38,249 bases of DNA from an uncultured Anaeromyxobacter sp. (lineage in GTDB: Bacteria > Myxococcota > Myxococcia > Myxococcales > Anaeromyxobacteraceae). Of this stretch, positions 6,988 through 30,825 are shown piece after piece. Both the position numbers and the translations under genes were made by a program. Each line of letters begins with the position of its first letter. Position 1 is the first letter of the stretch. The notes beneath the pieces were generated by a model, which was not told where the DNA came from, ran no database searches, and saw nothing but the letters and a program-made list of their open reading frames with translations. Where the stretch lies: contig CAIQRS010000106.1 of the NCBI GenBank assembly GCA_903874275.1, positions 1 through 38,249 on the forward strand, written 5' to 3'.

Positions 6988-7041
6988 CCGCTCCGAAGCC
7001 CAGAGCACGCAGGTACATCGGACAACTTCCCGGAGATCGAC

Positions 7042-7917
7042 TTGGATCCTGCCACCATCCTGAAGCTCGTGCTGGTCCTCGGCGTCGTGCTGCTCGTGCT
7101 GGCGATCGGCCTTCGGGCCCGGCCGGGCGATTCGCTGCTGCTCCTGCGGCGGCCGGACCTCGGCGTCCGGGCCCTGGCCGCGATGTTCATCCTGCAGCCG
7201 GCCTTCGTGCTCCTCCTCGTCTGGCTTCTCGATCTCCGGGCGGGCGTGGGCGCCGCGCTGCTGGGATTCGCGGTCGCCCCGGTGCTGCCGCCGTGGGCCA
7301 AGAAGGGGTACGCGCTGGGTGCAGCGTCCGACTACGTCATCGGCCTCGAGGTCATGGCGACGGCGGCGTCGATCCTGGTCGTGCCTGTCATGATCTGGAT
7401 CGTGAACGGGGTGTTCGGAGTGCACACCGCCCGGGGGCCCTGGGCGGTCGAGTTGATGCTGCTCGTCACCATCGGCCTGCCGCTCGCGGTGGGCATGATC
7501 CTCGGGAGGTTCCTGCCGGCGTCCGCCCCGCGCCTCGCCTTCCTCGCCGACCGGGCCGGCACGGTGCTCCTCCTGCTCGGCGGGGTCGCCCTGCTCGTGG
7601 CCCAAGGCAGGAACATCCTCGCCGTCACCGGCCGGGGAACGATCGTCGTCAGCGTGCTGATCATCGGCTTCGGGTTGCTCGTGGGCCACCTCCTCGGTGG
7701 GCCCGACGCCGGCAAGCGCGGTGCGCTCGCGTCGGCGAACGTCTCGCGGCATCCCGGGGTCGCGCTCCTCCTCGCCTCGAGCGCTCTGCCGGAGCACGTT
7801 CCGGCGGTGACTGGTGCGGTGCTGCTCTACCTCGTCGCCAGCATGGTCGTGCCCATTCCGTACGAGCGCTGGCTCAAGCGGGCCATGGCCGGCGGCAACC
7901 CGCAGGCCGCGCCGTAG
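7042..7917 (+). CDS. BASS/SBF-like (bile acid:sodium symporter fold) membrane transporter
   Basis: The product is 291 residues and almost wholly hydrophobic, with about nine or ten transmembrane segments and short loops. The layout resembles the sodium/bile-acid symporter superfamily: AAMFILQPAFVLLLVWLLDL early, a polar stretch with GAASDYVIGLE in the middle, and a late crossover-like segment (ALASANVSRHPGVALLLA). The matching segment in these transporters (NxxRNxGLA-like) helps form the sodium site. The start codon is TTG at 7042, with CGGAG at 7031-7035. The substrate cannot be told; an organic anion is the family norm. It precedes the secreted-family gene at 7949 by 31 bases. Confidence 0.65.
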   Translation: MDPATILKLVLVLGVVLLVLAIGLRARPGDSLLLLRRPDLGVRALAAMFILQPAFVLLLVWLLDLRAGVGAALLGFAVAPVLPPWAKKGYALGAASDYVIGLEVMATAASILVVPVMIWIVNGVFGVHTARGPWAVELMLLVTIGLPLAVGMILGRFLPASAPRLAFLADRAGTVLLLLGGVALLVAQGRNILAVTGRGTIVVSVLIIGFGLLVGHLLGGPDAGKRGALASANVSRHPGVALLLASSALPEHVPAVTGAVLLYLVASMVVPIPYERWLKRAMAGGNPQAAP

Positions 7918-7948
7918 CGCATCAGACCCCACCGATCGGAGGACACCC

Positions 7949-8485
7949 GTGGCCCGAATCCCCCCTTTGCTCGTCGCCCTCGCCCTCGCGGTGCCCATGT
8001 CCGGGCTCGCCGCGGACCCCGCGCCTCCCTCCGCCCCCACGCAGGCCATCGAGGCCATGGTGGGCGAGGTGATCACGCTCCCCGCCAACAACTCGGCGGC
8101 CTACGGCCCGGGGCGTGTGCGTGGGCCCAAGGTGAACCTCACCGACGATGGCAACGGGGAGTGGAAAGGCAACATCAAGGACCTGGACGGTGTCTTCAGG
8201 GTGACCGAGAAGCGCATTTCCGGCGGTAACCTGAACATGGTGATGGACCGGGACGGCGACGGCTGGATCTGCCAGGGCACCGTGGACGGGAAGCGGGTTC
8301 GCATCGCGTTCTCGCCCGACGGGTTCGTGGCCCGCTACGACAACCGGCTCTACGACCTGAAGCGCGTCGCCGCCGACCTCTGGGCGACCCCCTCCGGCGG
8401 GCCGGGCATCCGCATGAAGGGGGACGCCGCGGGGAAGAACCCGTATTACCCACAGTTCATCTTCGCCCTGCTCGCGGTGCTGTGA
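7949..8485 (+). CDS. Secreted protein, paralogue of the gene at 1549-2142
   Basis: The product is 178 residues from GTG 7949, which is preceded by GGAGG at 6-base spacing. The signal peptide (MARIPPLLVALALAVPMSG) ends near LAAD. Shared features with the 1549-2142 protein are RVRGPKVNLT, RISGGNL, D-G-D-G, a G-T-V-D-G-K-RVRI stretch and the terminal YPQFIFALLAVL. A single Cys lies mid-domain (WICQG). Alternating strands suggest a small beta-rich fold. No named family is recognised. The gene is convergent with 8570-9175; no clear terminator is seen in the 84 bases between them. Confidence 0.75.
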   Translation: MARIPPLLVALALAVPMSGLAADPAPPSAPTQAIEAMVGEVITLPANNSAAYGPGRVRGPKVNLTDDGNGEWKGNIKDLDGVFRVTEKRISGGNLNMVMDRDGDGWICQGTVDGKRVRIAFSPDGFVARYDNRLYDLKRVAADLWATPSGGPGIRMKGDAAGKNPYYPQFIFALLAVL

Positions 8486-8569
8486 CGGCGCGTCAGGGCC
8501 CCGAGGGCAACGACTCCCAGTGTGATGCGGGGTCGGTCGAACGCGGGCGGTGGGGCCTTCACGGCGCCG

Positions 8570-9175
8570 TTACTTCTTGGCCTTCTCCAGCTTGATGGCG
8601 ACGGCCTCGACGTAGGTGGCGAGGATCCTGTCGCCGACCTTGAGCTTCTCCATCTGGATCTTGGGTCCGGCCTTCACCTTGAAGACGTTACCGCCCGGTC
8701 CCTGGAGCGAGACCACCCGCGTGGCGGCGTCGATCGCGGTGACGGTCGTGGTGCCCTGGACGCCGGCCGCGGCCACGGCTCCGGGGGCCTGGTCCTTCTC
8801 GGCGCGGCCGCCGGAGGCGATGGCGGTCAGCGGGACGTTCTCGGAGCCGGCCGGCTGGAACTCGAGCGCCAGGGCCTGCTCGTACTCGACCTGGATGACG
8901 TCGCCGACGGCGAACTCGTCGAAGCGCTTCACCTCGGGGCCGACCTTCAGGGTTTCCGTCTCGCCCGCCTTGTTCTTCAGGGTGACGGTGCGGCCGGCCT
9001 TGTCGATGACGGTGATGGTGGCGGTGGCCTGGGCGGAGCGCTTGGCGGTGGCCTTGCCGGGGGTTCCGGAGGCCTGCACCTCGACCGGACCGTCGGCGGC
9101 GGGCTTGGCGGGAGCCTGGGCACTGGAGAAGGTGGCGGCGAGGACTGCGAGGGCGGCAACGATCAGCCTTCTCAT
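8570..9175 (-). CDS. Periplasmic protein with two copies of a small beta domain
   Basis: The product is 201 residues. ATG 9175 is preceded by GGAG at 7-base spacing, and the signal peptide (MRRLIVAALAVLAATFSSAQ) is clear. Two homologous units follow, about 52-110 and 142-197. Each runs T-x-T-[IV]-T-[VA]-ID-x-A-x-R-x-V-[TS]-L, then V-x-x-GP-[EK], then L/F-x-VGD-x-I-x-[VA]-x-Y. This is an internal duplication of a small barrel-like domain resembling short OB/SH3-type modules seen in secreted proteins. An Ala/Gly-rich linker separates the units. The function is not recognisable. Confidence 0.7.
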   Translation of the reverse strand: MRRLIVAALAVLAATFSSAQAPAKPAADGPVEVQASGTPGKATAKRSAQATATITVIDKAGRTVTLKNKAGETETLKVGPEVKRFDEFAVGDVIQVEYEQALALEFQPAGSENVPLTAIASGGRAEKDQAPGAVAAAGVQGTTTVTAIDAATRVVSLQGPGGNVFKVKAGPKIQMEKLKVGDRILATYVEAVAIKLEKAKK

Positions 9176-9422
9176 GTGGAGTCTCCGGTACGAGAAGTCG
9201 AACTTCGGGGATGCGACAGACTACTTGACTCCCGGTACGAAAGGGCGACGCAATCGAGTGTGGCCTCGTCGGGCGCATCGCCTCTCGGACGACCCCTCGA
9301 ATGGGGGTCGGTCGAATGGCGGGCAAGCCACGGGCAGCCCGAATCCCGGGTTGCATCCTTGCTGGATCGGTACCGCGCGCTTCTGCTACTGACCTGCGAT
9401 GACCTGCCCTCGGGGGAGACCC

Positions 9423-11396
9423 GTGAACCCGTCGAAACAGTTCGATCCCGATCCGTTCTCTCTCGCAGCCGGTGCGGCGGTGGTCGCCGCCGCGCTGGTG
9501 ACGCTCTTGCCCGCGCCCGCCCTGGCCTGGATCTGGCCCGAGCACCGGGACATCGCGGCCGCCGCGGTGAACGACCTGCCAGCCGGGGAACGCAAGACCC
9601 TCGACGCCATGTGGGGCGACGCGCAGAAGATCGGTGGCAAGCAGGTCTGCACGAAGCTCGTGGATCCCGGATCCCAGCCGACCACCAGGTACGGCGACTG
9701 GGACGGCGTCTGCGTGGACTTCGCCTCGTTCCCCGCGCTCGCCGCCGACCACTCCTGCTCGGCGGACGAACTCTGGGCCGACGTCTCCAAGGAGCAGTGG
9801 GCGGTCAAGGTGGTCTGGGTCGCCGCCCGCACCAAGGAGCGGCTCGCGAAGTCCGAGAGCCCGGCCCAGCACGAGGACGTCTGGAGCCTTTCCCACCTCG
9901 CCATGCAGTACGTCGATCCCCGCTACCTTACCCGGGCCGAGGGGAACAACGCCCACTTCCTGGTCCCGCGCGGCCCGGTGGAGAAGAGGGAAACCCTGGA
10001 CGGATACCTCGACCGCGTCCTGCTCCCGACCACCGAGATCAACGCCACCGGGCTCTACACCGAGTACCACATGCTGGCGCTCAGGCTCGCGGCGCTCTAC
10101 CACGCGGCGCCGGCGGCCGAGAAGGGCGAGCTGGCGCGCCGGTCGCTCGTGGCGGAAGGGGTCGCGCTCCACTTCCTGGAGGATTCGTTCTCCTCCGGCC
10201 ACTACGCGGCGATCTGGGGCGGCCCGGCCTGGGCCAAGGGCACGCACGACTACTACTCCACCATCGGTCTCACCACGATGACGTGGAGGGGGGACCTCTT
10301 CGCGAGCCACGGCGACGCCAACATGACCGAGCAGGACATGAAGGTGGCCGCGGTGACCGTGAAGCGGAGCCTGGCCCAGATGGCGAGCGCCGCCGAGGGA
10401 CGGATGCCGCTGGCGAGCCGGGAGCTCTCGCCCGCGGAGAAGGAGATCGAGAAGCTCGACTTCTGCAAGGCCGAGTTCCTGCCGGCGCCACCCGCCGATC
10501 TGGTGGCCCGCAGCGCCACGACCATGATCCTCCAGGACACTCCCGTTCCTGCGGGCGGGAAGGACGAGATCCACCCGCCCCGGGCACGCGCCGACATGGG
10601 GCCGTTCATCGGAGCCATCTCCGGATACTCGCTCGGTACGGCGCTCGGCGGCTACGACAGCTGGTCCAACGCCCGCATCCGGTCGGAGTTCGAGATCGGA
10701 GCCCGCGTCGGGCTCGGGCTCGAAGGACTGCTCACGAGGAGCATGGACGGGCAGATCTGGCTGCAAGCGGAGCTGGTGTCGGGGCCGGTGCAGCTCGACC
10801 TCGGGTGTTCGACCTGCACGCCGTACCCCCTGGCATCGGGCAAGCGAACCGACCCGGCGGTACCGCGGGTGAACTCCCGCACCGCCCTGAAGCTCTCGCT
10901 GCGCATGCCGTTCTACGTGGTCCCGTTCGACCTGCTGATCCTGGCCCCGGTCCTGATGTTTGCCGACCCGCAGGCGGCGACGAGCGTCGTCTTCGCCTCG
11001 GCTGCGGGCGGGCTCCTGCCCTTCGAGCGCAAGTGGGAGACCGACCTGGGCACCTTCCAGTTCATGGCCGGGAGGGAGGTCGGATTCACCCTGTGGGGCT
11101 TCACCGGTCACACGAACCAGTTCATCTACACGCCCACCACCAGTTCCGCGGACGTGAAGCTCATCAACTACGATTCGCTGGAGCTCGACTTCCCGGTCTT
11201 CGAGTACATCCCGCCCCGGGTCTTCGCGACCACGCTCTCGCTCGCCGCCCAGTTCCAGCTGGGTTTCAACGTCGAGATCCCGATGAACGTCGCCTACAAC
11301 GACGGCAGCGGCTCCTTCAGCCTCGGACCGAGCTGGAACATCTACCTCCGGTTCCGGCTCGACGCGCGCAAGTACTTCGGCGGGTCCGCGGACTGA
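9423..11396 (+). CDS. Zinc phospholipase C/P1-nuclease-like domain joined to a predicted beta-barrel
   Basis: The product is 657 residues from GTG 9423 (GGGGGAG upstream); ATG 9399 has no ribosome site. The signal peptide is predicted to cut after Ala35, leaving Trp36 as the mature N-terminus, as in zinc phospholipases C where Trp1 binds zinc. His41, a later NNAHF histidine and the motif HFLEDSFSSGH (H+4=D, H+10=H) match the zinc-ligand spacing of Bacillus PLC (His118, Asp122, His128). A following GTHDYYS resembles the next His ligand, but Ser stands where Glu is usual. From about residue 390 the sequence changes to alternating strands (GPFIGAISGYSLGTAL, IGARVGLGLEG, LGPSWNIYLRFRLDARKYF), which suggests an outer-membrane barrel. 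The phospholipase activity and barrel anchoring are inference. Confidence 0.65.
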   Translation: MNPSKQFDPDPFSLAAGAAVVAAALVTLLPAPALAWIWPEHRDIAAAAVNDLPAGERKTLDAMWGDAQKIGGKQVCTKLVDPGSQPTTRYGDWDGVCVDFASFPALAADHSCSADELWADVSKEQWAVKVVWVAARTKERLAKSESPAQHEDVWSLSHLAMQYVDPRYLTRAEGNNAHFLVPRGPVEKRETLDGYLDRVLLPTTEINATGLYTEYHMLALRLAALYHAAPAAEKGELARRSLVAEGVALHFLEDSFSSGHYAAIWGGPAWAKGTHDYYSTIGLTTMTWRGDLFASHGDANMTEQDMKVAAVTVKRSLAQMASAAEGRMPLASRELSPAEKEIEKLDFCKAEFLPAPPADLVARSATTMILQDTPVPAGGKDEIHPPRARADMGPFIGAISGYSLGTALGGYDSWSNARIRSEFEIGARVGLGLEGLLTRSMDGQIWLQAELVSGPVQLDLGCSTCTPYPLASGKRTDPAVPRVNSRTALKLSLRMPFYVVPFDLLILAPVLMFADPQAATSVVFASAAGGLLPFERKWETDLGTFQFMAGREVGFTLWGFTGHTNQFIYTPTTSSADVKLINYDSLELDFPVFEYIPPRVFATTLSLAAQFQLGFNVEIPMNVAYNDGSGSFSLGPSWNIYLRFRLDARKYFGGSAD

Positions 11397-23053: not shown

Positions 23054-23141
23054 GCCGCAACCGGATGCAGGGCGCAGGGCGCCGTTCGATGCTAGTGTGC
23101 GGGCTTCGCGCGAGGGGCCGGGGACGGCCGGGGGAGGAGGC

Positions 23142-23891
23142 GTGGGGCGCATCCGGGCGGTCTTCGAGGACTTCGGCGGGCAGGTGCTCTTCGCCGGCGA
23201 GACCCTGGCCTGGGCGGTCCGCCCCCCGTTTCGCCTCGAGCTGCTCCTCCACCAGGCCGCCGCCATCGGCGTGGGCTCCACCTTCATCGTCGCCGTGACC
23301 GGCCTCTTCTCCGGGATGGTGCTGGCCCTCCAGGGCAACTACGCCATGCGCCAGTTCGGAGCCGAGGGCTACGTGGGCGGCTTCGTGGCCATCAGCCTGG
23401 TGCGCGAGCTGGGGCCGGTCTTCACGGCCCTCATGGTCACCGGGCGGTCGGGCAGCGCCATCACCACCGAGCTCGGGACCATGCGGGTCACCGAGCAGAT
23501 CGACGCCATGGAGTCGATGGCGGTGAACCCCGTCCACTACCTGGTCGTCCCCCGCGTGGTGGCGGCCACCCTGATGATGCCCATCCTGTCGGTGGTCTTC
23601 AGCGCCATGGGATACCTGGGCGGCTACCTCATCGGCGTCTACGTCTCGCTCATCCCGCCCGGCCCCTACCTCGACCACACCAAGTCGATGCTCGACGTGC
23701 CCGACATGACCCACGGCCTCTCCAAGGCGGTCATGTTCGGGGCGGTGGTCTCCCTCATCGCCACCTACCGGGGCTACAGCGCCTCGGGCGGCGCCCGGGG
23801 CGTGGGGGACGCCACCACCCAGGCGGTGGTCTGGAGCTCGGTCGCCATCCTGGTCGTGGACTACCTGCTCACCTTCATCTCCATCGGCTGA
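23142..23891 (+). CDS. mlaE: MlaE-family ABC lipid transporter permease
   Basis: The product is 249 residues with about five or six hydrophobic segments. It carries MlaE hallmarks: GMVLALQGNYAMRQFGAEGYVGG, RELGPVFTALMVTGRSGSA and EQIDAMESMAVNPVHYLVVPR (written here as separate pieces of one conserved core), then GGYLIGVY and a final Y-R-G-Y-S-A-S-GGA-x-GVGDATT block. It starts at GTG 23142 with GGGGAGGAGG just upstream. It is the first gene of an mlaE, mlaF, MCE operon that moves phospholipids between the inner and outer membranes. The direction of transport cannot be told from sequence. Confidence 0.92.
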   Translation: MGRIRAVFEDFGGQVLFAGETLAWAVRPPFRLELLLHQAAAIGVGSTFIVAVTGLFSGMVLALQGNYAMRQFGAEGYVGGFVAISLVRELGPVFTALMVTGRSGSAITTELGTMRVTEQIDAMESMAVNPVHYLVVPRVVAATLMMPILSVVFSAMGYLGGYLIGVYVSLIPPGPYLDHTKSMLDVPDMTHGLSKAVMFGAVVSLIATYRGYSASGGARGVGDATTQAVVWSSVAILVVDYLLTFISIG

Positions 23892-24658: not shown

Positions 24659-26236
24659 ATGCCCGCCGCATCGAACACGCCCACGCTGAACCGCGCCCTC
24701 GCGGTGGGGATGCTCGTCGCCATCGCCGGCGCCGTCTTCCTGGTGGCGTTCACCTTCTTCCGCAAGGGTGGGCTGGCGGCCCGCGACAGCTACGCGATCA
24801 CGGCGGTCTTCGACGACGTGACCGGCCTCTCCTGGAAGAGCCGGGTCCAGGTGGCCGGGATCCAGGTCGGCGAGGTCACCGAGATCGAGCTCTCGGGGGA
24901 GCGGGCCCGGGTGACCATCCGGGTGAAGAACGACATCCCGCTGCGGGCCAACTCCTGCCTGACCAAGCGCTTCCCGTCGGCGCTCCTGCCCGACGCACTG
25001 CTCGAGGCCAGCGTGGGGTCCGCACCCGCGCCGCTGCTTCGCGACCTTCCGGAGGGGGAGCGGCAGATCACCTGCGTCCGCGAGGCGGCCAACGTCGCCA
25101 AGCTCATGGAGTCGCTCTCCAAGATCGCCGGCGACATCCAGGTCGTGTCGGCCGACCTGGCCAAGACGGTCGGCGGCACCCAGGGGAGCGTGCGGGAGAT
25201 CATCGAGAACCTGACCCACGTCACCCGATCGGTGGACCGTCTCCTCGAGGACAACTCCGACAAGGTGGCAGGCATCCTGGACAACACCGAGGCCCTGACC
25301 GGCGAGCTTCGCGCCGTGGCCGCCCAGGACGCCGGCCGCTACTCGTCCATCGCCAGGAACGTCGACGAGGCCAGCCAGCGGTTGAACCGCATCCTGGCCT
25401 CGGTGGAGGACATCGTCGGCCCGAGCCAGACTCCCGAGCTGAAGGAGTCGGTGCAGGGCGCGCGGCAGGCCCTCCTGAAGCTCAACAAGACCCTGGACGA
25501 CGTGCAGTCGGTCACCTCCAAGGTGGCGGCGGGGCAGGGCGTGGCCGGGAAGCTGCTCGTGGACGAGCAACTCGGCGAGAAGGTCGGCATGGCCGCCGAG
25601 AGCCTCTCCGACTACGTGAACCGCATCTCCGCCTGGCAGCTCTTCGTGAACATCCGCTCGGAGTACCTGGTCAACTACGGGGGCACGCGGGCCTACTTCG
25701 GCGTCACGCTGATGCCCAAGCCGGACAAGTACTACATCCTGGAGCTGATGACCGACCCGCGCGGCTACAACACGGTGATCACCGAGACGGCCACCACGCT
25801 CAACGAGTCCACCGGTTCCTCGGTCACCACGACGACCGTCCGGTCCATCAACGAGCAGCGGCTCGCCATCTCGGCGATGTTCGGCAAGCGCTGGGGAGAC
25901 CTGGTGGGGCGCGTGGGGCTCATCGAGAGCTCCGGCGGCATCGGCGTGGACTACCTGCTCTTCCAGGACAGGCTCAAGCTGTCCCTCAACGTCTACGGCT
26001 GGACCCGTCCCACGGTGGACACCTTCCCCCGCACCAAGCTCTGGTTCGACTGGCGCTTCATCCCCAACGTCTACGTCACCGGCGGGATGGAGAACCTCCT
26101 GAACGCCTACAACTACGGGTCGGGGCGCGACTTCTTCATCGGCGCGGGGGTCTACTTCAACGACCAGGACCTCCGGGCGCTCCTCGTGGGAGGCGGCGGT
26201 GCAGCGGCGGGAGCCGCCGCCGGCGCGGCGAAGTAG
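24659..26236 (+). CDS. MCE-domain (MlaD-type) lipid transport protein with a predicted C-terminal beta-barrel
   Basis: The product is 525 residues, much longer than the roughly 180 of E. coli MlaD. An N-terminal transmembrane helix (about 13-35) anchors it in the inner membrane. One MCE domain follows (about 45-120), with VTGLSWKSRVQVAGIQVGEV and a DALLEAS end. A long helical region (about 135-325) is rich in N-x-x-x-L/I heptads. From about 330 to 515 the sequence consists of amphipathic strands and turns (YFGVTLMPKPDKYYILELM, GRVGLIESSGGIGVDYLLF, FFIGAGVYFNDQDLRALL), as in an outer-membrane barrel. The tail is Gly/Ala-rich. I infer a single chain spanning the periplasm. It is third in the operon after mlaF. 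Confidence 0.85.
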   Translation: MPAASNTPTLNRALAVGMLVAIAGAVFLVAFTFFRKGGLAARDSYAITAVFDDVTGLSWKSRVQVAGIQVGEVTEIELSGERARVTIRVKNDIPLRANSCLTKRFPSALLPDALLEASVGSAPAPLLRDLPEGERQITCVREAANVAKLMESLSKIAGDIQVVSADLAKTVGGTQGSVREIIENLTHVTRSVDRLLEDNSDKVAGILDNTEALTGELRAVAAQDAGRYSSIARNVDEASQRLNRILASVEDIVGPSQTPELKESVQGARQALLKLNKTLDDVQSVTSKVAAGQGVAGKLLVDEQLGEKVGMAAESLSDYVNRISAWQLFVNIRSEYLVNYGGTRAYFGVTLMPKPDKYYILELMTDPRGYNTVITETATTLNESTGSSVTTTTVRSINEQRLAISAMFGKRWGDLVGRVGLIESSGGIGVDYLLFQDRLKLSLNVYGWTRPTVDTFPRTKLWFDWRFIPNVYVTGGMENLLNAYNYGSGRDFFIGAGVYFNDQDLRALLVGGGGAAAGAAAGAAK

Positions 26237-26262: not shown

Positions 26263-27555
26263 CTACCTCCCGATGGCGAACTGCAGCTGGGCCCAGGCCG
26301 AGGCGAGGTCGAAGGCCGTCTTCACCTCCTGGGCCTGCGCCGAGGTGAAGGAGGTCTGCGAGATGGTCACGTCGATGATGGTGCCGATCCCGGCCTGGTA
26401 GCGCCCCTCGGCGAGCTCGAGGTTCTCCTTCGCCTGGCTCACCAGCCTCCGGGCCACGGTGCGGAGGGCCCGGGCCTCCTTGACCGTGGTCACCGCCTGC
26501 TCGACGTCGGTGCGAACTTGAAGGAGCAGGAGATCGCGGGAAGCTCCCGCGGAGGCCAGCACGCCCGACTGGACCTCCACCCGCCCCATGTCGGCGCCGC
26601 CGTTCAGGAAGGGCCAGGTGATGGTCCCGAGGACGTTCCAGGAGTTCGAGTCGGGGGCGGGGAGCCCCCCGGCGACGGGATAGCGCGAGTTGTTCCAGAG
26701 GTAGCTCGCGCTCACCCCGAGAATCGGATACCAGGCAGATTTCGCGGCCGAGAGGTTCTGGTCGGCGGCCGAGATCTGGAGCTCGGCGGCCATGAGATCG
26801 GGGCGGGACGCCGTCGCCTCGGCCATGAGGCGAGGCACGTCGAGGTCGATGTCCTGGGGCACCGTGGGCAACTGCAGGGTGCGCTTCGACACGTCCTGCC
26901 CGACCGCCTGGGACAGCGCGATGCGGGTGAGCAGCACGTCGTCGTGCGCGGTGATCTGGGACATGAGCGATTGCTGGAGGTTCACGTCCGCGGTGGTCAC
27001 GTCGAAGCGGGGGCGCTGGCCCACCTCGAACTTGCCGCGGGCGAGATCGAGCTGCCGCTGGTACGACGCCACCGTCTGGTCGGCGACGGCCACGAGCGCC
27101 TCGGTGGCGAGCACGGTGTAGTAGGCGGTCCGGACGTTCAGCTCCACCGCGTTCCAGGCGGCGTCCACACCGGCCCGGGCCGCCCGCTCCTGGTCCCGGG
27201 CGGCCATGTAGGCCCCCAGCGTCCGGCCGAAGTCCCAGAGCGTCTGGTTGAGCGTGATGGATGCGTTGTAGGTGTCGTAGAGCACCGACGACGGGCGTGC
27301 GCCCAGGGTGCTGGCCGTCCAGCCGGCCTTGGCGCCCGCCGATCCGGCGGGGAGGAAGCCGGAGCGGGCGATCCCCACCTGCCCCCGGGCCTGCATCACC
27401 GAGGCCTGGGCCTGAGCCAGCCGGGGATTGGCACGCGCCAGATCCAGCGCCTGCTCGAGCGCGAGCGGGGCGGTGGCCGCGGGCTCCGCCTGGGCCGCCG
27501 CCGGGGGCGGGGCTCCCGCGGCCGCGACGGCGAGTGCGAGGAACAGCGCGTTCAT
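26263..27555 (-). CDS. TolC-family outer-membrane efflux protein
   Basis: The product is 430 residues with a signal peptide (MNALFLALAVAAAG..., cut near AAAQ). Two repeats of the OEP family are visible. The first opens with ALEQALDLARANPRLAQAQASV, the second with SRPDLMAAELQISAADQNLSAAKSAWYP. Long coiled helices and short strands (VSASYLWNNSRY, WNVLGTITWPFLNGG) complete the TolC plan. Start ATG 27555 overlaps the permease stop by 4 bases. It would be the outer-membrane exit duct for the MacA/MacB-like proteins of the same operon. It is convergent with the MCE gene, with 26 bases between stops and no terminator seen. Confidence 0.92.
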   Translation of the reverse strand: MNALFLALAVAAAGAPPPAAAQAEPAATAPLALEQALDLARANPRLAQAQASVMQARGQVGIARSGFLPAGSAGAKAGWTASTLGARPSSVLYDTYNASITLNQTLWDFGRTLGAYMAARDQERAARAGVDAAWNAVELNVRTAYYTVLATEALVAVADQTVASYQRQLDLARGKFEVGQRPRFDVTTADVNLQQSLMSQITAHDDVLLTRIALSQAVGQDVSKRTLQLPTVPQDIDLDVPRLMAEATASRPDLMAAELQISAADQNLSAAKSAWYPILGVSASYLWNNSRYPVAGGLPAPDSNSWNVLGTITWPFLNGGADMGRVEVQSGVLASAGASRDLLLLQVRTDVEQAVTTVKEARALRTVARRLVSQAKENLELAEGRYQAGIGTIIDVTISQTSFTSAQAQEVKTAFDLASAWAQLQFAIGR

Positions 27556-28777
27556 TCGAACCTCAGGGCGGTGATGGGGTCGAGCCGGGAGGCCTTGTGG
27601 GCCGGGTAGAGGCCGAACACCACCCCCACGAGCCCGCTGAAGCAAACGGCGATGGCGATGACGTCGGGACGGTAGAGGACCTGCCATCCGAAGCTGGTGG
27701 CGAGCCACCAGGCGCCGAACACCCCCAGACCGACCCCGATGAGCCCACCGGTGATGGCGAGGGCGAGCGCCTCGACCAGGAACTGGAGGCGGATGTCGGC
27801 GGGCTTGGCGCCCACCGCCATGCGCAGGCCGATCTCGCGGGTCCGCTCGGTGACCGACACCAGCATGATGTTCATGATCCCGATGCCGCCCACCAGCAGC
27901 GAGACGGCGGCGATGGCGGCGAGCAGGGTGGTGAGCGTCCGCGTCCCCTCCTGCTGCGCGCTGGCCACCTCGGAGAGGTTGCGGATGGAGAAGTCGTCGT
28001 CGGCGCCCAGCGGCAGGCGGTGGCGATCGCGGAGCAGGGCGCGGATCTGGCTCTCGGCCCGGGAGGTGGTGTCGGCGCTGGTCGCGCTCACCGTGAGGCT
28101 GCCCTCCACGAAGTTCTTCAGCGCCCCCTTGATCTTCTGCTGGTAGGTGGTCACCGGGACGATGACGATGTCGTCGTAGTCCTGCCCCCACTGCGACTGC
28201 CCCTTCTTGTTGAGGACGGCCACCACCACGAAGGGCACGTTCTTGATCCGGAGGTTCTGGCCGACGGGGTTGGCGTTCTGGCCGAAGAGCTTGTCGGCCA
28301 CGGTCTGCCCGATCACCACCACCTTGGTCCCGGTCTCCACGTCACCTTGGGTGAATAGGGTGCCGAGAGCGGGTGCCCAGGTCCGGATCTGGAAGTACTC
28401 GGGGGAGGTCCCGAGGATCTGCGTGCCCCAGTTCTGGTCCTCCGACATGACCTGGCCGTTGGTGCGGAGCTGCGCGGCCGCGGCGCGGACGGTGGGGATC
28501 TCGGTCTGGATGGCGCGGAGGTCGTCCCAGGTCAGGGTGGGCATGGAGCCGAACCCGCCCATGGCGCCCCCGCCGGTGCTCGTGCCGGGGATGACGATGA
28601 GCATGTTCGACCCCATGGCCGCGAAGGTGGCCTCGACGCGGGCCTTGGCGCCGTCGCCGATGGCCACCATGGCGATGACCGCCGAGACCCCGATGACCAC
28701 GCCGAGCGTGGTCAGGAAGGAACGCATCTTGTTGCGGGTGAGGGCGCGAAGCGCCACCCGGAGCGTCTGGAGGGGAT

Positions 28778-28781
<4 letters not shown>
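27552..28781 (-). CDS. MacB/FtsX-type ABC transporter permease
   Basis: The product is 409 residues. One N-terminal helix (RSFLTTLGVVIGVSAVIAMVAIG) is followed by a large periplasmic domain (about 45-280). Three C-terminal helices end the protein, with the typical VGGIGIMNIMLVSVTERTR and GLRMAVGAK blocks and a final YPAHKASRLDPITALR. It corresponds to the membrane half of MacB with the ATPase as a separate gene. Start GTG 28781 overlaps the ATPase stop by 4 bases. MacAB-TolC systems move macrolides, peptides or lipoproteins by a mechanotransmission cycle; the substrate here is unknown. Confidence 0.93.
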
Positions 28782-29524
<743 letters not shown>

Positions 29525-29535
29525 GGTGCCCGGTC

Positions 29536-30825
29536 CTACAGTCCGCGGCGGAGGTTCTGGAGGTTGGGCGAGCCCGCGCCGAGCGCGTCGGTGATGACGA
29601 CGTCGCCCGCCTTCAGCTCTCCCTCGATCACCTCGGTGAAGGTCCCGTCGGTGATGCCGGTCTTCACCTTCACGGGAGCGGGCTTCTCGTCGGTGAGGGT
29701 CCAGACCGTCCGACCGGAGGCGTCGCCGGGACGACCGCCTCCCGCGCCCGACCGCGGGCCGGCGCCGCCGCCGCCAGTGGAACCTGCAGCGCCGCCGCCC
29801 GTTGCGCCTCCCGCGCCGGCAGCCCTCGCACCCGGCGCTCCTCCCTTGCCGTCCCCCAGCATGGAGGGAGGGGGCCGGAATCGCAGCGCCGCGTTCGGCA
29901 CCTTGAGCACGTCCTCCTTCTCGGCGTAGACGAAGGTCACGTTGGCGGTCATGCCCGGCTTGAGCTTGTGGTCGGGGTTGTCCACGTCGATCACCGCGTC
30001 GTAGGTGACGACGTTCTGCACGGTCTGCGGGGCGTTGCGGACCTGGCGGATCTTCCCCCGGAAGGTCTCTCCCGGGTAGGCGTCCACCGTGAACGATGCC
30101 GCCATCCCCGCCTTGAGGCGACCCACGTCGGCCTCGGCGACGCTGGTGTCCACCTGCATCTTGGCGAGGTCCTCGGCGATGACGAAGATGGTCGGGGCCG
30201 AGAGCGAGGCGGCCACGGTCTGGCCCACGTCCACGTTGCGGGAGATCACCGTCCCGTTCGTGGGCGACACGATGTTGGTGTAGGCCAGGTTCACCTCGGC
30301 CGACTGCAGCGCGGCCCGGGTCTGGGCCACGTTGCCCTCGGTGGCCGCCACCTGGGCGTCGGCGGCATCGGCGTTGGCCAGGGCGGTGTCGAGGTCGGCC
30401 TGGGCGTTGAGCTTGCGGGCGGCGAGCTCCTTCTGTCGCTCGGCCTGGCGGCGGGCGTCCACCGCTTGCACCTTGGCCTTGACCAGGTTCCCTTGCGCGG
30501 CGGCCAGGTTGGCCCGGGCCTGGTCCACCGAGGCCTGGAAGAGGGCGGGGTCGATCTTGGCGATGAGCTGCCCCTTCTTGACCGGGGAGTTCCAGTCGGC
30601 GTGGAGCGACGCGATGCGCCCGGAGACCTGGCTGCCGACCTGCACGGTGACGATGGCCGAGAGCAGCCCGGAGGCCGTCACCTTGGCGACGACCCGGCCC
30701 TTCTCCGCCTTGCCCGTCTCGAACTGCAGCTTCTGCTTCCCGTCTCCCGGGTTGAGGAGCCAGAAGGCGAGGGCGGCGACCACGAGGACGGCGGCCAGGG
30801 CGATGAAGACGCGACGCTTGGTCAT
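29536..30825 (-). CDS. macA: MacA-like periplasmic adaptor (HlyD/RND-type fusion protein)
   Basis: The product is 429 residues. An N-terminal membrane anchor (VFIALAAVLVVAALAFWLL) is followed by a lipoyl half-motif (GQVSGRIASL equivalent QVSGRIASLHADWNSPVKKG). A helical hairpin spans about 85-170, and the second lipoyl half (YTNIVSPTNGTVISRNVDVGQ) and beta-barrel domain come next. An unusual Gly/Ala-rich insertion (about 325-372) interrupts the C-terminal domain before RTVWTL. It heads the adaptor, ATPase, permease, TolC operon. ATG 30825 has no ribosome site; TAATAT lies 9 bases upstream. It should link the permease to the TolC-like duct. Confidence 0.92.
   Translation of the reverse strand: MTKRRVFIALAAVLVVAALAFWLLNPGDGKQKLQFETGKAEKGRVVAKVTASGLLSAIVTVQVGSQVSGRIASLHADWNSPVKKGQLIAKIDPALFQASVDQARANLAAAQGNLVKAKVQAVDARRQAERQKELAARKLNAQADLDTALANADAADAQVAATEGNVAQTRAALQSAEVNLAYTNIVSPTNGTVISRNVDVGQTVAASLSAPTIFVIAEDLAKMQVDTSVAEADVGRLKAGMAASFTVDAYPGETFRGKIRQVRNAPQTVQNVVTYDAVIDVDNPDHKLKPGMTANVTFVYAEKEDVLKVPNAALRFRPPPSMLGDGKGGAPGARAAGAGGATGGGAAGSTGGGGAGPRSGAGGGRPGDASGRTVWTLTDEKPAPVKVKTGITDGTFTEVIEGELKAGDVVITDALGAGSPNLQNLRRGL

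Follow-up and report, generated by a model that had tools for sequence, protein, structure and literature searches.

Grasekamp et al. (2023) described the MlaD protein of Veillonella parvula as a 419-residue polypeptide comprising a transmembrane domain (TMD), an MCE domain, a helix of ~150 residues and a ten-stranded β-barrel (PMC10665443). The protein belongs to an MlaEFD system without MlaA or MlaC. Fractionation assigned the TMD-MCE part to the inner membrane and the barrel to the outer membrane, and lipid and genetic data linked mlaEFD to retrograde phospholipid traffic: the mutants have the phenotype of retrograde mutants, which loss of tamB suppresses (PMC10665443). The same study counted 103 MlaD sequences that have the barrel; most of the long MlaD proteins surveyed are without one. 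It also reported that barrel-bearing MlaD tends to accompany the absence of MlaA and MlaC, and described the barrel as too narrow to take a phospholipid. Myxobacteria are not named in the main text of that paper.

The proteobacterial six-component Mla system includes an outer-membrane MlaA lipoprotein and an MlaC shuttle. In Escherichia coli (MlaFEDB), MlaC and MlaA are the working partners of a 183-residue MlaD in which both the long helix and the barrel are missing. The mycobacterial Mce1 heterohexamer is built from six different subunits, each of which carries a single strand at the tip of its long tunnel helices. In PqiABC and in the Mla-Pqi chimeric (Mpc) system of Brucella, MpcEFDA, MCE helices span the periplasm and reach the outer membrane, which is contacted by a separate PqiC-type lipoprotein (PMC12436622).

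Here, we analyzed a 38,249-nucleotide stretch (the window) from an uncultured Anaeromyxobacter sp. (assembly GCA_903874275.1, contig CAIQRS010000106.1) that contains an mlaE-mlaF-mlaD operon. The initial annotation had read the third gene of this operon as encoding an inner-membrane helix, one MCE domain, about 190 residues of helix and about 190 residues of barrel-like strands, a distinct architecture in which one polypeptide would bridge both membranes and replace MlaC and MlaA.

Results

Organization of the mlaEFD operon

Profile matches (Table 1) and conserved gene order upheld the assignment of the long mlaD as the third gene of an mlaE-mlaF-mlaD cluster. Its reading frame translates without interruption, and the cluster genes are separated by 4 bases (mlaE/mlaF) and 16 bases (mlaF/mlaD). 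In the reading of mlaE from the first GTG, homology to MlaE starts at approximately residue 16, and translation may in fact begin a little downstream of that codon.

The operon was compared with 12 loci from species genomes of relatives, ranging from Anaeromyxobacter-like organisms to Myxococcaceae and other 'Deltaproteobacteria' MAGs. The mlaE gene lies 5' of mlaF/mlaD in all 12, and the order mlaE-mlaF-mlaD is kept in 11. No extra gene conserved in the operon was seen among these loci. At one locus (L013:3491-5843), a barrel-type mlaD lies directly 3' of mlaE, the intervening mlaF being missing, and the 6.9-kb contig gave no match to an ABC ATPase. Downstream in the window, a TolC-MacB-MacA-type efflux cluster (26263-30825, minus strand) is convergent with the mlaEFD operon. 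This cluster directly adjoins the operon in the nearest relatives only.

Table 1. Genes of the mlaEFD operon and predicted domains of its long MlaD, with positions in the window.
Feature	Position	Strand	Evidence
mlaE, MlaE-family ABC permease, 264 aa from first GTG	23097..23891	+	PF02405 E 2e-83; TIGR00056 above cut-off
mlaF, ABC ATPase, 248 aa	23896..24642	+	PF00005 E 2.2e-34; NF008809 MlaF E 1.3e-55, below the equivalog cut-off
mlaD, long form with predicted C-terminal β-barrel, 525 aa	24659..26236	+	Translation; PF02470; AlphaFold2 model
Inner-membrane helix, residues 10-35	24686..24763	+	Hydropathy window; H10-35 in AlphaFold2 model
MCE domain, residues 44-142	24788..25084	+	PF02470; fold match 5uw8
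Long helical region, residues 146-324, presumed periplasmic tunnel or stalk	25094..25630	+	AlphaFold2 helices; length conservation
Predicted ten-stranded outer-membrane-type β-barrel, residues 326-500, extended hairpin ~366-401	25634..26158	+	Model, fold matches, alternation test
C-terminal helix, residues 502-523, F-x-D-x-D motif at start	26162..26227	+	H502-523 in AlphaFold2 model

Inner-membrane helix, MCE domain and helical region

The domain order proposed in the initial annotation was borne out by the translation, the PF02470 match, hydropathy and a full-length AlphaFold2 model, which was built for the monomer using a 40-member alignment. The lengths estimated for the helical and barrel parts were right to within ~10-15 residues. 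Hydropathy located a hydrophobic segment at approximately residues 10-37. The PF02470 match covered residues 44-101 (E 3.5e-13; 50 bits versus a cut-off of 25.1), and all 40 relatives match this profile. The MCE β-domain (residues 44-142) was modeled with a pLDDT of ~95 and aligned with the MCE core of E. coli MlaD (5uw8) with Z 16.1 and rmsd 1.8 over 97 residues.

The helical region was modeled with low to medium confidence (pLDDT ~40-85). Its hydrophobic period is 3.56, and a profile comparison matched it to the Mce1 tunnel proteins and to a solved MCE protein, 13hr. The region measures ~180 residues in most of the 40 relatives and up to 221 in the longest. In two Anaeromyxobacter-type relatives (L064 and L065) it exceeds 200 residues, the extra residues lying near 255-262; these may point to a flexible joint or to a periplasm of greater width.

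Predicted C-terminal β-barrel

Based on structural modeling, residues 326-500 are predicted with confidence to form an outer-membrane barrel. The strands at 327-500 form an antiparallel β-barrel in the full-length model, and residues 321-525 predicted alone likewise gave a confident barrel (pLDDT 86.9, pTM 0.75), in agreement with the barrel-like strands noted initially. Chains were compared using Foldseek and then VIA-align. Among the chains compared, the closest solved fold was OpcA (Z 16.4, with 138 residues aligned at rmsd 2.5), followed by a Legionella porin, Pla/OmpT (Z 14.5 for Pla) and the designed ten-strand barrel TMB10 (Z 13.9). A fold search using the full-length model likewise pointed to ten-stranded outer-membrane barrels. 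The OpcA and OmpT-type proteins have this barrel fold in common with the C-terminal domain of MlaD but are free-standing, with no MCE fusion, and share ~7-12% identity with the MlaD barrel in structural alignments.

DSSP lists 12 strands in the barrel region. A 12-stranded barrel was rejected as the best folds are ten-stranded and strands 370-381 and 388-399 were taken to form a hairpin prolonging strands 3 and 4 past the DPRG kink. Because these two strands continue strands 3 and 4, ten is the better count of membrane strands.

The hydrophobic-polar alternation of the ten strands, scored using alignment-averaged hydropathy, was 1.63, versus 0.73 ± 0.17 for shuffled strands; none of 5000 shuffles reached the observed value. 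The hydrophobic strand face is 4% charged and 62% I/L/V/M/F, and the opposite face is 34% charged, a contrast that is partly built in because the faces were assigned from hydropathy. With faces so assigned, the polar face was only marginally more conserved than the hydrophobic one (p = 0.06). Conserved charges, several of them near-invariant, occupy the presumed lumen face: R411, R418, R458, K/R460, K/R344, K357, D/E478 and D491. Very short turns of 2-4 residues, at 355, 413, 435 and 469, mostly alternate with longer loops at 366-401, 447-457 and 479-490, as in outer-membrane proteins.

The barrel measures 166-204 residues in relatives, and the region is conserved in the 40 relatives together with its motifs (DPRG/FAKRY/IESTGG/GRDFF-GxGxxF-TDDDL). 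F500, D502 and D504 are invariant in this set. The final strand closes on F500, with G495 and G497 conserved, an ending that we take to be compatible with a BAM recognition signal.

Distribution in the phylum

A match to the long MlaD was found in 180 of 195 genomes of the phylum, and at least 130 of these matches, among those listed, extend to the barrel end. The closest named relatives occur in uncultured Anaeromyxobacter MAGs (85-87% identity). A chance open reading frame was rejected based on conservation across the 40 aligned sequences and on Pfam support. An assembly fusion artefact was similarly rejected, the same architecture being present in independent genomes. A literature search for MlaD in Myxococcus returned no relevant paper.

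MlaA, MlaC and other MCE systems

The Anaeromyxobacter assembly (5.07 Mb, 98.9% complete, 285 contigs) contained no MlaA, and no MlaC was found in it using either the Pfam profile or the MlaC of a sister genome as query. The E. coli and Caulobacter controls were positive for both families. The two proteins, initially reported as not seen near the operon, were accordingly found neither there nor elsewhere in the assembly. MlaA was also absent from all 195 phylum genomes. MlaC-family genes were detected in 147 of the 195; of the other three genomes in the same genus, two (G045 and G046) have one, so the statement that there is no MlaC is true of this genome and false of the phylum.

In the four loci read (L069-L072), the neighbor of the MlaC-family gene is a TolC-type OEP gene; L071 also has an MMPL exporter gene ~3 kb away. 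No mlaE, mlaF or mlaD match was found beside the MlaC-family gene in these loci. MlaC as a partner of the mlaEFD operon was rejected as the MlaC genes of relatives, in the loci read, sit with OEP/MMPL genes. The MlaC-family and OEP/MMPL genes of L069-L072 possibly represent a separate lipid or hopanoid export module. As for the proposed replacement of MlaC and MlaA, the Anaeromyxobacter genome and the phylum-wide absence of MlaA support it; the presence of MlaC-family genes in most of the phylum, albeit outside the operon in the loci read, calls for caution over the replacement of MlaC.

Three MCE proteins are encoded in the Anaeromyxobacter genome, as are LolA and TamB. A second MCE operon (L066, G000:C147:14000-30000, positions 7007-10458) encodes an MlaE with an N-terminal extension (373 aa), an MlaF, a 316-aa MlaD and a PqiC-type lipoprotein (PF03886), and resembles the Brucella Mpc system. 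A third (L067, G000:C249:12500-23603, positions 7581-11065) encodes MlaE-like and MlaF-like proteins, and its 318-aa MlaD has no extension large enough for a barrel. These two operons could share or take over the role of the long MlaD.

Discussion

The assignment of the Anaeromyxobacter MlaD to the already described barrel-bearing architecture is well supported. The description of V. parvula MlaD in 2023 means that this architecture is not new (PMC10665443), contrary to the initial annotation. Both proteins have an inner-membrane helix, a single MCE domain, a long helix and a ten-stranded barrel (as predicted for the Anaeromyxobacter protein), and both belong to a three-gene mlaEFD operon in a genome without MlaA and MlaC. 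The Anaeromyxobacter protein differs in its length (525 versus 419 residues), its longer helical region (~180 versus ~150 residues), the extended hairpin that follows strand 3 and the helix at its C terminus, and its genome differs in having two further MCE operons and LolA. The TMD, the MCE domain and the partners MlaE and MlaF are common to the E. coli system, whose MlaA and MlaC have no counterpart found in the Anaeromyxobacter genome. Similarly, a TMD, one MCE domain and long helices, presumed to form a periplasmic tunnel in the long MlaD, are shared with Mce1, the long MlaD ending in a predicted whole barrel instead of a single strand. MCE helices that would span the periplasm as far as the outer membrane are a feature in common with PqiABC and Mpc, relative to which the outer-membrane contact would be a fused barrel rather than a separate lipoprotein.

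We consider it highly likely that MlaE, MlaF and the long MlaD constitute a minimal MlaEFD transporter in which an MlaD hexamer tunnel and outer-membrane barrels remove the need for MlaA and MlaC, and lipid passes beside the barrels. In this three-component MCE system of permease, ATPase and long MlaD, six MlaD chains would, by homology, sit on an inner-membrane MlaE2F2 core. Their MCE domains would form a ring and their ~180-residue helices a hydrophobic-lined periplasmic tunnel. Every chain would end in its own ten-stranded barrel, predicted from its fold and presumably inserted in the outer membrane. As the barrels, up to six in number, would fix the tunnel mouth at that membrane, neither MlaA nor an MlaC shuttle would be needed. 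The models, which give one polypeptide domains for both membranes as initially proposed, indicate that a single MlaD chain probably bridges the two. The presence of TamB, the genetic antagonist in V. parvula (PMC10665443), was counted in favor of this bridge.

The MCE ring would exchange phospholipids with the outer membrane, the movement most likely being inwards, in line with the proposal for V. parvula. The narrow barrel and the conserved charges on its presumed lumen face suggest that the barrels act as anchors and gates round the tunnel mouth, with lipid moving between or beside them and not through them. This route agrees with the published remark on the narrowness of the barrel (PMC10665443). 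A closed, salt-bridged lumen is favored. A more specific arrangement, in which six plugged barrels with charged lumens form an outer-membrane collar round the tunnel mouth and admit phospholipid laterally through the gaps between them, is rather doubtful. We know of no lipid transporter for which such an outer-membrane gate has been described.

The C-terminal domain might instead be a soluble, ten-stranded periplasmic barrel of the lipocalin/nitrobindin type that binds or hands over lipid outside the outer membrane. Nitrobindin-type folds do align (Z ~11.5, rmsd 3.3-3.9), but outer-membrane folds fit better (OpcA, Pla and TMB10, above). Further, the alternation of short turns with longer loops, a strand face almost without charge and the invariant aromatic residue that closes the last strand all argue for an outer-membrane location, as does the finding of the same-position domain of V. 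parvula MlaD in the outer membrane (PMC10665443). A soluble barrel is thus very unlikely. We regard as similarly improbable that a soluble MlaC-family carrier encoded elsewhere serves the long MlaD, the bridge then not being the lipid route. The occurrence of MlaC-family genes in most of the phylum, G045 and G046 included, makes a shuttle link elsewhere possible in relatives. However, no such gene was found in the Anaeromyxobacter genome, MlaA is absent from every genome searched, and in the four loci read the MlaC-family genes lie beside an OEP gene, in one of them also near an MMPL gene, without mlaE, mlaF or mlaD alongside.

A stronger contender, which we judge plausible if less probable than not, is that the barrel is an outer-membrane anchor only, and that extraction and release of lipid depend on a separate partner, for example a porin. 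In E. coli, MlaA functions together with porins, and the predicted lumen of the MlaD barrel is narrow and charged. Moreover, most surveyed long MlaD proteins are without a barrel, the role of which was left unsettled in V. parvula (PMC10665443). Nevertheless, the phenotypes in that organism are linked to the mlaEFD genes only (PMC10665443), and the mlaEFD operon contains no additional conserved gene. Finally, transport by MlaEFD may be anterograde, carrying phospholipid outwards instead of returning it to the inner membrane. The direction of transport is debated for MCE systems generally, but an outward direction appears unlikely given that the V. parvula mutants are retrograde-like and suppressed by tamB loss (PMC10665443).

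Overall, the myxobacterial long MlaD is a conserved version of the barrel-bearing protein that is widespread in the phylum. It supports the view that one-chain membrane bridges are widespread for phospholipids and that the MlaA/MlaC route of E. coli is the exception. Its occurrence in apparent relatives of the genetically tractable Myxococcus would make the role of the barrel and the path of the lipid testable outside Firmicutes.
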